Below, piece by piece: positions 20,715 to 29,660 of a stretch of DNA of 29,737 bases (positions are counted from its first letter, which is position 1; every line of letters begins with the position of its first letter). Source of the stretch: Glutinoglossum americanum (Eukaryota; Ascomycota; Geoglossomycetes; Geoglossales; Geoglossaceae); contig JAGHQL010000244.1 in the NCBI GenBank assembly GCA_020080175.1, positions 1 through 29,737 on the forward strand. The letters run 5' to 3'. Made by a program: the position numbers and the translations under genes. A model generated the notes under the pieces. That model was not told the DNA's origin, did no database searches, and worked only from the letters and a program-made list of their open reading frames with translations.

Positions 20715-23700
20715 ATGTCCGCTGAAGAGTCCGATGATGCGACCCAAAGGGGTTATTTTTCTGGTTCTGAGGCGGGTTCGCAGCCGGACAGTGTGCTCGA
20801 TATTGGCACCCAGTTCGAGCCATATTACCCCCATGAAGAGCCCGAATTAGAGGTTGATTTATCTTCCCAAATTCGCGAACACCATAACCAAGGCATAAGG
20901 GGCTTTCCCAAGTCATCTAAAATAACACTAGGACTCTCTGCTTCGAGCAAAAATCCCAAGGGGGGTGATTCTAGTCATGGTGGACAGTCGTCGTCAAAAT
21001 CTGCCCAGCAACCTCAAACCTTAGCGGGGACTACCATACGAGATCCTTCTCTACTCACCAGTGGGTTTGGGGTCGCAAGTCTTGAAGGCAAAAATATCCA
21101 TGCGGTCTTCGATGCCGACGTGTTGTTTGATAAAAGAGATCTTCTAGGCACTGGAACGGACCTGGGTTGCAAGAAAAACCCCATAAAAATCGACTCAGGT
21201 CAGCCTCGACCGATCGAGCTGCCTGATGACGATGTAATTTTCGTTTCCTGTCGGCCAAGACAATTTCCTTTGACCCCTTTGAGTCAACCCATGAGGAGTT
21301 CGCCAGGCGTAAGGGTAAAAGAGGAGCCTGGGAGCCAAGAAGATACGTGGAATAGGCTTTCCGCAATTGCGGCAAAGGTCGAAGCTACTAACAGTAGTCT
21401 GAGCAGTTCCCTTGGGCCAGCTCGCGATGTCTTGAGCGGCCCAAGCTCTCACCTCAGCGTTAGGGAACCAGACAGCGACATCGCGACATTAGGGAGAACC
21501 CCTGACATTAATCTGCCTCCGTTAGGGTTTTCTAAAGAATCGGTTCGCCCTCGTTATGTGCCCAAGGAAGATGTAGTGGAGAAGATCCAAGCGAACTTGC
21601 TAAAGAAGTATATGAGGAAGTCGACTCTTAGCAGTCATGAAGGCTTCGGCGGGGGCAAAGCTGGCCCTATTGAAAAGAGGGAATCCCGCACTAGTCGAAT
21701 AGGAGCGGGAAATCCCCATTACGACTCATACCCACCAAGTGCTGGTGTCCGGGAGAAATTCCTAGAAGCCTCGGTAACAGGCGACGATCCAGAGAACGCA
21801 TGGATGAACGACGACATAAGCGATGAAGAGGAGGACTCTGACTCGTAAGCGCCCTCTAGCTTCTTTAACCTCTTCTGACAGGGCTACTAGCTACGAGAGG
21901 CTCAAGACCGCAATGGCAAAAGAGAAGAGCAATGCCACTCGGCTGAAGTTGGAGGTAGAACTAATCGCTGCGGGAAATAGAAAGGATGTGAGGAACCGGA
22001 GACGGCGTATGGGGTCACAGTCGAGAGAGTATGTTGTATCTACGGTCTCTTTTCCTGCTGGGGATAGTCCTAATCGGTCTCATAGTGAGGAGGCTGATCT
22101 GGAACTGGAGTCTCAAGGCGGACTTTTTATACCAGATTCACGGGAGAATGTCCACAAGCAGAGAAAGAGAGCCCATGAGGCATTTCAACGTTATAAGACG
22201 CCATATGAAGTTAGCCCTGGTGAAATCGAAGAGTTTGACATCGACCAGACCGATATAATTGCAAAAAAGCCCAGGGTTGAATCAGGGTCTGAGAGCCAGT
22301 TGGCTATGCGAGCAACAACCGAGATCGGAGAAGGGCAAGAGGAAGTTGGTGTTGCAGCTCAGAGATCTGCTAATACGAATCTTGAACAAGTTCCTCCAAA
22401 CGAGGGGAGGCTGGCTGGGAGCGAGGATGATGTTGAAGTAGCGCTGTTGAATGCGATAGTTCAATCCAGGTCAGCCAAGAAGCCAAGGAAGAAAGCCGGC
22501 CCAAGACGGAAGACGGCGAAGGAGGTGCATCTTCAGAAAACAAAGACTGCGAAAGTGGTCAAGGCTAGCAAGGCTGATAAGGCCAATAAATCTTCCAAGA
22601 CTACTCAGGGAGCAAAAGGGGGAAAGGTTACTAAGAGTACCGCAAAGGCTCCAAAAGTGCCGAAGAAAGGAAGTAAGAAGAAAACCACGAACGTAGCGAA
22701 CGGTCTTGGAGATACTGGGGAGGATCTTCTCCACAGCTTATTCTTTACGGATGCGATAGCGCAGCGTCAAGCTCAGGGTGACTTTGGGGAGGCACCAGTC
22801 ATTGGAGAAAAGCTTCACAAAGATCGAATGCTTAAAGAACTTATGGCGAGCGTTCCCAAGGAGGTAGGTTCTCACTCGCTAGGCCCCTCCTTAAACGCGG
22901 GGATAAGGTGCCAATCTGTGAACTAACTGTCTCCACGAATCACAGCACAAGAGGCTTGTCACCAACGACAAAATGCAGGTTCTTAAAGCATCAAAGAACT
23001 TCGGTTATGGGGCGGTAAAAGCTTTCGAGGGCAAGTGGCTACTTAGAGGAATGAAGGTATGTTACTTTGCTCTCTTTTGCAGGTTATGCCGCCGCGCACT
23101 AATGTCTGGTAGTCGCCCTTGTATCACCATCAGCTCCTGGGCGCTGACTGGATGGTTTGACATTTACAATTTGACTTATTGACTGAGCTATAGATGCTAA
23201 TGTTCCCGCAGGTTGGTCGCGAACTTGGGAGTCGAGAAAAAGGCGGCATATTGGCTGACGCCATGGGCCTTGGGAAGACTTTGCAAATGCTAGCAACGAT
23301 GGTTGGAAACCCGCCTGATCCAGGGGCAGCAGCTAGAGCCACGCTTTTGATTGTCCCAAGCAGTGTTATAGAGCAGGTAGGAAGGCAATATCCTAGGGTT
23401 TGATGAATCTGGGTTCTGAAAGCCTTTTTTTATAGTGGCAGGACGAGATCCGTACGCACGTCGAGGAGGACTTCTTCAAACGGGTGTTGCATTTCAAGAA
23501 ATCAAAAGAGATTCCACTCTCTATCCTCCAGACCTGCGACGTCATTATCACATCTTATACAGAAATCCTAGCGAGTTATCCGTATCCGAGCTATGGAAAA
23601 GAGAGGGAGATGGGGGCCCTCGAAGTTTGTGTTCTCAATTCCGTATTTTTCGAACTGCCCGCTGACAGCCTTAGGTTGCTGAGGTAGTGAAGAAGTCTTG

Positions 23701-26166
23701 GCCGGATCGTGGCGTCTTGCATCAGATGAGATATCACCGTGTTGTCCTTGATGGTTGCCCACTCCCGGTTTAAATGATTAAATGATGGTACAGAAGCTAC
23801 ATAATGCTGACGGTTATTAGAGGCCCATGTCATCAAGAACCATAAGAGCCGAACCTCGATAGCTTGCCATATGCTGAATTCCGAGTAAGGCCCTTCCCAA
23901 CCCGCAATACTTCACAGGACCAGCAAAAGGATCTGTTGCGTCTCGTGAACCCTCTATTGGGTAATAAATCATTCTAACCCTCGCTATTAGATATAGATGG
24001 GCTCTTTCCGGAACGGTAAGCCATCATTACCCTAAATTGGTAGACTGGCATTAACGATGTCGACCCCTGGGTTAGCCTATTCAAAAGTGAGTGGTCCAGT
24101 TTATCAGCATTTCCCCATAATTTTCTCACCTCAATTATAGCCGGATTGAGGAAATATACTCTTACTTTCGATTTCTTCGTGTACAATACACTATAGATTT
24201 CTATCACTTCAAGAAGGAATTTTGCGATCCGGACAGCGAGGACTGCAACGCACGACTTCTCACTATGTTGTCAATGCTAATGATTAGAAGAACCCTCAAA
24301 GACAAGATGTTCAATAGGCCGATCGTTGAGCTACCAGAGACATACACCAGTGTGAGGAGAGTTGACTTTAGCAAAGAGGAGAGATGTCTATATGAAATCA
24401 TTGAAGAGAGGTTCCGTATGGACTTCAATTTATTTCTGAGGGAGGGGACTGCCAAGCGGAACTACCGCACTATGGTAGTGAAGCTGTTGAGGCTACGACA
24501 GCTGACAGCTCACCCGTTCTTACTCCGTAAGCAAGATCTAACTTTACTCGGCTACAACTAGGCTCACAAACCTACTAGAGCAAACAATACAAGATATTTT
24601 TACCCTGGAAGACGTGAGGAAATTAGAGGCCAGACTTAACCAAGCTCAACAGGCAGACGGTCGTCCTCTGTACGAGAAAGTAGGCAGATGGGTAAAGGAG
24701 CGTGTTCTAGAGCGTCAAGCAGATGGAATCGATGCAAACGAACCACAAACCGAAGAAGAGTCAAGGGCTCGGTCCTTTGGTAAATCAGACTTTGGCACCT
24801 CATTTTCGATTTACAAATACCTCAACACCCTCGACGAGAAGGAAATGCTTACCCGTTGCGTATGTCGCATTTGTCACGATGTAGCATTTGACCCTCAAAT
24901 CACGGACTGTTACCATGTGTTCTGCAAGCCTTGCATCGAAGAGGAAGCTAGCCGCTGGGCACAAGAGGGGCATGAATTCACCGAATGCCCGGCTTGCAAT
25001 AACATCTTCTTGACCCTTGTCCCATGGTTCGACCTTACTGCGAAAGAAAATACGGCAAGCCCCTCATCACCTAGGGCCCATGAAGACGAGGAAAATGATA
25101 GGGCCGAGAAAAATGCGTCTTCGTGGCTGAATATAGAAGGAGAACTCCTTCCCTCTGCTAAAACCATTGCGCTGAAAGCAGTAATTTTGGACTGGATCGT
25201 GACGGCGCCGAATGACAAGATCGTCGTCTTTACTCAGTTCCGTCTGATGTAAGCCAACCTCCTCTGACGGCGGCAGATCTCCATATGACTAGCTAACCTA
25301 CCATCCTAGGGGAAAAATCATTGGAAAAATTTGCGAGCAAGAAGGTGAGTCTAGGAACCTCCCATGCCTGTAGTTTAACCTTCTAACACATAGGGAGGAT
25401 GGGGGTTCGTTAATGTAAGTTAAAGATTGGAATAATATGGTACAATTAGTGGATGTTAATGAACGGAACAGTTCACTGGAAACATGAACAATAAAGCGCG
25501 TAGCGCGGCCGTGAAGGCCCTAAAAGATGATCCACTCAAACGCGTCATGATCGCTGGTCTCAAATGTGGTGGGCAGGGCCTTAATCTCACGATGGCGTGC
25601 CGAGTGATCTGTATCGACCTCTGGTGAGCGAATAGGGCGCTTTTCCACCTTGTGTATCACCTGCAGAGAGCTAATAACCCCAAAAGGTGGAACCACAGCG
25701 TTGAACAGCAAGCCTTTGGTCGAGTTTTCAGGTAACGAATCCATTTATTACCGCTGCAGAACTGCGGTCCGGCCTCTCTGTCTCTAACATGCGTCCCATT
25801 CAAAACATAGAATCGGTCAGCAGAATCAGACGCATTTGACAAGATTTGTGGTTAGGGGCACCGTGGATGATCGGCTCCTAGGTAATCCCATCCCCAACGA
25901 AAAAGCCCAAAAGAGTCCCACTAACTCCCTATACATATAGGCATGCAAGCCGAGAAATCAAAAGTGTATGCACCATACACTCCCCTACACGGGTCGCTAG
26001 TATACTAACCTAAGATAGTGTTGACGGCGTGATGATGGATGATGGCCGAAATGTCCCTAAGTTGTCGGTAGAGGAGCTGGCGAGTCTATTTGGGTATTTG
26101 TCGGAGGACGAGGAGGGGAATCAAGTTATTTTGCCGGATAATGATAGGTTGGCAGAGTGTGATTGA
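20715..26166 (+). CDS. SNF2-family DNA-dependent ATPase with inserted RING finger (RAD5/RAD16/ULS1-like class)
   Basis: This is a predicted nuclear DNA translocase coupled to ubiquitin ligation, about 1448 aa. Its 19 exons are 20715-21844, 21882-22863, 22946-23056, 23113-23154, 23212-23376, 23436-23624, 23675-23753, 23821-23884, 23991-24015, 24076-24086, 24141-24526, 24579-25248, 25310-25344, 25398-25414, 25472-25623, 25687-25731, 25811-25881, 25941-25965 and 26019-26166; their sum is divisible by three. Residues 1 to about 700 are disordered, with a SUMO-interaction-like DDDVIFVS at about 170 and a Lys-rich stretch at about 573-640. Helicase motifs appear in order: HHQLLGADWM (about 745), DAMGLGKT (771-778), DEAH (899-902, split by an intron), YRWALSGTPIQN (922-933), MIRRT, then a C3HC4 RING (C1155 to C1201), VVFTQF, CGGQGLNL (about 1334) and FGRVFRIGQ (about 1362). 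A RING between the two helicase lobes is the RAD5/RAD16/HLTF/ULS1 layout. No HIRAN domain is evident, which argues against RAD5 itself. The exact orthologue is unresolved. Confidence 0.9.

Positions 26167-26608: not shown

Positions 26609-29660
<3,052 letters not shown>

Follow-up and report, generated by a model that had tools for sequence, protein, structure and literature searches.

Architecture of the SNF2-RING gene

The window (the whole stretch of DNA analyzed, 29,737 nt from Glutinoglossum americanum) carries on its forward strand an SNF2-RING-Helicase_C gene at positions 20715–26166. We assembled the gene model manually, guided by reading frames and splice signals and with the first ATG in the open frame as the presumed start codon, and obtained 19 exons and 18 GT-AG introns whose spliced product is open and stop-free over 1448 aa. 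The N-terminal introns were placed from reading frame and splice signals only, and the model is least secure in its N-terminal half and at exon 18. Pfam places an SNF2-rel_dom at aa 747–1059 of the 1448-aa model (188 bits), a C3HC4 RING at aa 1157–1201, and Helicase_C at aa 1267–1370. The domain order is therefore SNF2, RING, Helicase_C, that of an SNF2 ATPase with a RING between its two lobes, which we take to be a Rad5/Rad16-like architecture. The best solved relative of the protein is Rad5 (6l8n, E = 5.4e-49), and the two align without a gap across the exon junction discussed below (LTGTPIINRLDDLFSLVQFL with LSGTPIQNRIEEIYSYFRFL). In Rad5 orthologues a HIRAN domain precedes the SNF2 domain; HIRAN was absent among the six Pfam families matched in the full model at E values up to 0.001, and on this count the protein is not classed as a Rad5 orthologue.

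Several exons of this gene are very small. The 11-nt exon 10, the subject of this study, is not isolated, as exons 9, 14, and 18 measure 25, 17, and 25 nt. Exon 9 (23991–24015) encodes (E)YRWALSGT, the first half of motif III, lies directly upstream of intron 9, and is set off from the preceding exon by the 106-nt intron 8 (23885–23990). Exon 14 (25398–25414, GATGGGGGTTCGTTAAT) encodes (G)WGFVN. Exon 18 (25941–25965) encodes (G)MQAEKSK and has the least certain boundaries, which were chosen for frame. Exon 4 (23113–23154, 42 nt, SPLYHHQLLGADWM) is followed by an intron found at the same position and phase in a paralogue, L045, described below. The median intron length in the two modeled SNF2 genes is 57.5 nt. 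Intron 1 (21845–21881), at 37 nt, is shorter than any other of the 32 introns modeled in the window gene and L045; some intron is required there because an in-frame stop lies at its start. Downstream on the same strand is an MCM6 gene, which spans positions 26609–28319 and continues beyond (start placed by eye). Its identity comes from a comparison of 26976–28319 with solved chains, in which the best match is MCM6 28vy_6 (E = 2.4e-145), presumably yeast MCM6. Taken with the short median intron, this match is in keeping with a fungal genome.

A candidate 11-nt exon in motif III

Exon 10 (CCTATTCAAAA, positions 24076–24086, forward strand) encodes Pro, Ile, Gln, and the first two bases of an Asn codon. 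This codon is split AA/C, whereas P, I, and Q lie entirely within the exon, such that 11 of the 12 nt of PIQN come from it. The exon stands in the setting ...CCTGGGTTAG/CCTATTCAAAA/GTGAGTGGTC... (slashes mark splice junctions throughout), with GGGTTAG before and GTGAGT after. Exon 9 ends at 24015 with ACG (Thr, phase 0), and its downstream partner in the gene model, exon 11 (24141–24526, RIEEIYSYFRFLRVQ...), starts at 24141 in phase 2. Splicing by way of exon 10 joins ...RWALSGT to RIEEIYSYF... as SGT-PIQN-RIEE, completing motif III (SGTPIQN). Intron 9 (24016–24075, 60 nt, phase 0) reads GTAAGC...GGGTTAG, and intron 10 (24087–24140, 54 nt, phase 2) reads GTGAGT...AATTATAG. Possible branch sites were recognized by eye at ATTAAC (24050–24055) in intron 9 and CTCAC (24125–24129) in intron 10. 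With a length of 11 nt and GT-AG introns on both sides, exon 10 falls within the definition of a microexon (at most about 30 nt, between two introns).

The initial annotation had proposed this exon as the source of PIQN, with introns of 60 and 54 nt and normal signals around it, and had numbered it exon 10 between an exon 9 ending in SGT and an exon 11 beginning RIEEIYSYF. Our rebuilt model reproduces the sequence, coordinates, and flanks of the exon, the lengths and ends of both introns, and the numbering; an equally placed 11-nt exon occurs in the paralogue.

Alternative joins and chance expectation

We enumerated the GT/GC-AG splice choices over about 24001–24199. Five single-intron joins are in frame and open, as are 40 of the 182 two-intron joins. 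Only two of those 40 supply PIQN, and RWALSGT is retained in just one, the combination of 24016–24075 and 24087–24140; the other was rejected because ALSGT is lost when its GC donor at 24001 is used. A direct join of 24015 to 24141, which had been named as a refuting transcript, reads SGTPD-stop, scores 130.3 bits against Pfam SNF2, and fails as a coding alternative. The remaining in-frame joins lose PIQN and were rejected as well. With the microexon included, the surrounding 400 aa score 192.2 bits against Pfam SNF2, compared to 163.0, 167.0, and 168.0 bits for the same 400-aa region in the three other in-frame full-length joins that were scored (a loss of 24–29 bits each) and 142.8 bits for a product lacking exon 9 as well as exon 10.

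Other in-frame joins are nevertheless possible (24016–24150, for example, gives SGTEIYSYF), and the locus might be spliced in one of these ways, or the gene might be non-functional, with PIQN at 24076 a mere accident. We weighed this reading against shuffled versions of the 125-nt interval, 200,000 in number, which preserved dinucleotides and in which the terminal GT and AG were fixed. An 11-nt exon bounded by AG and GT and reading P[ILMV]xN appeared in 60 of the 200,000 shuffles, and one reading P[ILMV]QN in 3, whereas 20,973 contained an 11-nt exon that was open, whatever its sequence. The corresponding counts for the L045 interval, again among 200,000 shuffles, were 37, 0, and 4,984. Because open 11-nt exons are common in the shuffles, the weight of this comparison rests on the peptide and not on the existence of such a segment. 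The window contains 227 AG-N11-GT segments, counting both strands, and of these only 24076–24086 begins with codons for Pro, [ILMV], and any residue and ends in AA. The rarity of P[ILMV]xN in the shuffles, the bits lost by the three other full-length joins, the open 1448-aa model, and the 11-nt exon at the same place in the paralogue all argue against this reading, which we regard as very improbable. An introner-like or otherwise repeated intron was also considered and rejected, since a search of the genome, within its sensitivity, turned up no further copy of 23885–24140.

Spliced alignment with motif III peptides from other proteins

We aligned motif III peptides to the locus with a homemade protein-to-DNA aligner that allows GT-AG introns in any phase, applies flat splice-site scores, and uses parameters of our own choosing. 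Peptides from the same genome were taken from 24 of the 30 SNF2 genes with an unbroken motif (see below), and 23 of the 24 returned exactly the introns 24016–24075 and 24087–24140; the lone exception, from L006, gave a short match elsewhere. For outside queries, a search with a single protein found no relatives in the prokaryotic and viral contig collections, and a search with an alignment of the two paralogues found at least 80 prokaryotic and 51 IMG/VR loci, which were used solely as a source of outside peptides. Of the 131 bacterial and IMG/VR loci fetched, 26 had no motif by pattern, leaving 105 peptides. The same two introns were returned by 96 of these 105 bacterial or viral SNF2 peptides; of the remaining nine, seven placed no intron at the site and two chose 24040–24091 instead. 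The equivalent exon of L045 was returned by 18 of the 24 same-genome peptides, the other six continuing into the first intron for a few codons, and by 87 of the 105 bacterial or viral peptides, the other 18 using no intron there.

Motif III in the SNF2 genes of the genome

The genome surveyed comprises 25.8 Mb in 317 contigs. At least 57 PF00176 matches were grouped by us into 34 genes, counts that are lower bounds, and one of these (L053) was dropped because by eye it resembled an XPB-type helicase, leaving 33 SNF2 genes. Loci that gave no initial match to the motif were read on both strands and by eye. Motif III is unbroken in 30 of the 33 genes, contains a single intron in one (L019), and carries an 11-nt exon in two. 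In L019 (contig C252; G000:C252:26240-29899), reading by eye places one intron between the G and T of GTP, without a microexon, with LTG in one frame and TPLQN in another. A third relative, L044 on contig C260, reads SGTPIQN without a break. Contig C260 holds, within about 10 kb and on opposite strands, two related SNF2 genes with RING-like segments (G000:C260:105000-109600 and 113500-118700), one with the microexon and one without.

An 11-nt exon at the same place in a paralogue

The second gene with an 11-nt exon, L045 (contig C260; G000:C260:113500-118700), is the closest relative of the window gene found in the genome, with 39% identity over 760 aligned positions. Its site reads ACG/GTGAGC...ATTAATAG/CCAATACTCAA/GTACAA...CTTCTAG/TAACGTG, and AATAG precedes the exon. 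The exon CCAATACTCAA is 11 nt long, encodes P-I-L-N with the Asn codon split 2+1, and lies between introns of 56 and 52 nt. Its alignment position, length, and phases (0 and 2) are identical to those of exon 10 in the window gene; the coding contribution of the microexon is conserved in a relative. L045 has a second microexon of 18 nt at motif I (Walker A; locus coordinates 1824–1841), reading MGLG-K/TVTMI/-A and flanked by introns of 60 and 49 nt.

Six introns of the window gene (4, 5, 9, 10, 12, and 14) have a counterpart in L045 at the identical alignment column and phase, within compared cores of 16 and 14 introns. Random placement of introns, a crude null, gave a mean of 0.1 shared introns and a maximum of 3 in 20,000 trials. 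Because these six introns coincide in column and phase, the microexon and its two introns most likely predate the duplication that yielded the C260 paralogue, judging from the two sequences. The 11-nt exons could instead have arisen twice, each paralogue having independently gained introns to either side of PIQN, and the intron inside the same motif of L019 implies that the site can accept introns. However, introns 4, 5, 12, and 14 are shared as well, with the same positions and phases, which indicates a common intron-rich ancestor and leaves a double gain very unlikely in our estimation.

The two genes are not identical in structure. Intron 8, which cuts off exon 9 in the window gene, is absent from L045, and exons 13 and 14 (25310–25414; 35 + 17 = 52 nt) match one 52-nt exon of L045. 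Exons 9 (25 nt) and 14 (17 nt) appear to reflect later intron gain in the window gene, or loss in L045.

Splice signals, frame consequences, and a proposed splicing mechanism

Splice-site scores were compared with those of the 28 other introns of both genes, a set that includes one L045 intron whose donor is one base off. The intron 9 donor outscores 19 of these 28 and its acceptor only 4; the intron 10 donor likewise outscores 19, and its acceptor 26. The normal splice signals described in the initial annotation thus stand with one reservation, the weak acceptor of intron 9. In L045, it is the second donor that is weak, outscoring 1 of the 28. Given the weak intron 9 acceptor and the weak second donor of L045, splicing at this site could be inefficient or regulated.

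When the microexon is skipped, the window gene reads SGTPD-stop and L045 reads SGT-stop; in both paralogues, retention of either intron brings a stop after no more than 1 to 14 codons. Since skipping and retention both stop the frame, there is no productive alternative at the microexon alone, and constitutive inclusion is the simplest reading. A regulated switch is conceivable nonetheless, in which inclusion would produce the active ATPase while skipping or retention would turn the gene off, or in which exons 9 and 10 would be skipped jointly to give a 1436-aa protein without motif III, possibly a dominant-negative or scaffold form. Joint skipping of exons 9 and 10 (25 + 11 = 36 nt) would keep the frame, the intron 9 acceptor is weak, and a 20-nt microexon of Trichoderma is described as glucose-regulated (PMC11121469). 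On the other hand, equal phases are expected by chance about one time in three, and neither gene yields a full-length product when only the microexon is skipped. We place little weight on joint skipping because L045 lacks intron 8 and the 36-nt pair is not conserved. According to the cited sources, a length that is a multiple of 3 is usual for microexons in animals, the 20-nt exon of fungal Xlr2 being an exception (PMC11121469, PMC8831610); exon 10, at 11 nt, does not have such a length, and only exons 9 and 10 together keep the frame. Overall, we consider a regulated switch quite unlikely.

We think it very probable, on the strength of the sequence comparisons, that exon 10 is a real coding microexon of an SNF2-RING ATPase, constitutively needed, spliced by intron definition, and flanked by introns older than the duplication. 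Fungi rely largely on intron definition. Under the constitutive reading, the two short introns, of ordinary length for these genes, would each be recognized across themselves, so that the 11-nt exon would not need to be recognized as an exon. Introns 9 and 10 would presumably be removed successively, because factors cannot occupy both sides of 11 nt together, and the spliced product would restore motif III (SGTPIQN). Mis-spliced RNA would be unable to make the enzyme, because its frame stops in or just after motif III, and would probably be subject to decay. The genome encodes a PRP40 relative with FF domains (E = 1.1e-32 to PRP40 chain 6n7p_J), which may assist at the window microexon; in worm and mouse, a role for PRP-40/PRPF40A in promoting the intron-definition splicing of microexons has been proposed (PMC11463390).

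Discussion

Very small exons are already known in fungi and plants. One of the closest parallels is that of the CYP621A P450 genes of Fusarium, described as containing a 1-nt exon in the PKG motif with read support and 20 orthologues (PMC12940212). Like exon 10, it is a tiny fungal exon within a conserved motif, is essential for frame, and was deduced from homology; its two introns and exon together resemble one over-long intron of 139 nt (PMC12940212). The cases differ in that CYP621A involves 1 nt of a P450 motif backed by 20 orthologues and sequence-archive reads, whereas the window exon is 11 nt, lies in SNF2 motif III, and draws its evidence from a paralogue. The Xlr2 gene of Trichoderma virens is reported to contain a 20-nt, glucose-regulated microexon that is missing from the JGI gene model (PMC11121469). 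It too is a microexon of a filamentous fungus within a conserved motif, but its regulation by glucose is demonstrated, while the window exon is known from DNA sequence.

In plants, conserved microexon Cluster 16 is assigned to an SNF2 N-terminal domain (PMC8831610). The resemblance lies in a coding microexon of 1–15 nt in an SNF2 domain, with variants without flanking introns also occurring; we liken the two by domain alone and claim no homology. The P450 genes of the white-rot fungus Phanerochaete chrysosporium, as described in a genome-wide survey of gene structure, have microexons of 2–10 aa throughout the set and a shortest exon of 6 bp (PMC1184071); they share with the window gene the combination of small exons and small introns in a fungus, but belong to a different gene family. 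Among the literature matches listed, none describes by its title a microexon in a fungal SNF2 gene. The initial annotation had called the exon unusual for fungi, which is a fair description, although very small fungal exons within conserved motifs have been published before. The added surprise is its retention across an old duplication.

A more far-reaching interpretation is that the microexon is an old, maintained splice checkpoint of an SNF2-RING subfamily, and that the window gene could, by skipping exons 9 and 10 together, produce an isoform with a dead ATPase. We consider this improbable. If it were true, both introns would have been held since the ancient duplication because skipping or retention truncates the ATPase, and helicase output would be tied to splicing efficiency.

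Exon 10 offers a clean, testable case in which an invariant enzyme motif of a fungus contains a very small exon, at one and the same position in two genes of only 39% identity. Members of this SNF2-RING helicase family could be fragmented or truncated by gene finders that pass over such exons, and the pair of paralogues offers a system for studying how fungi splice exons too short for exon definition.
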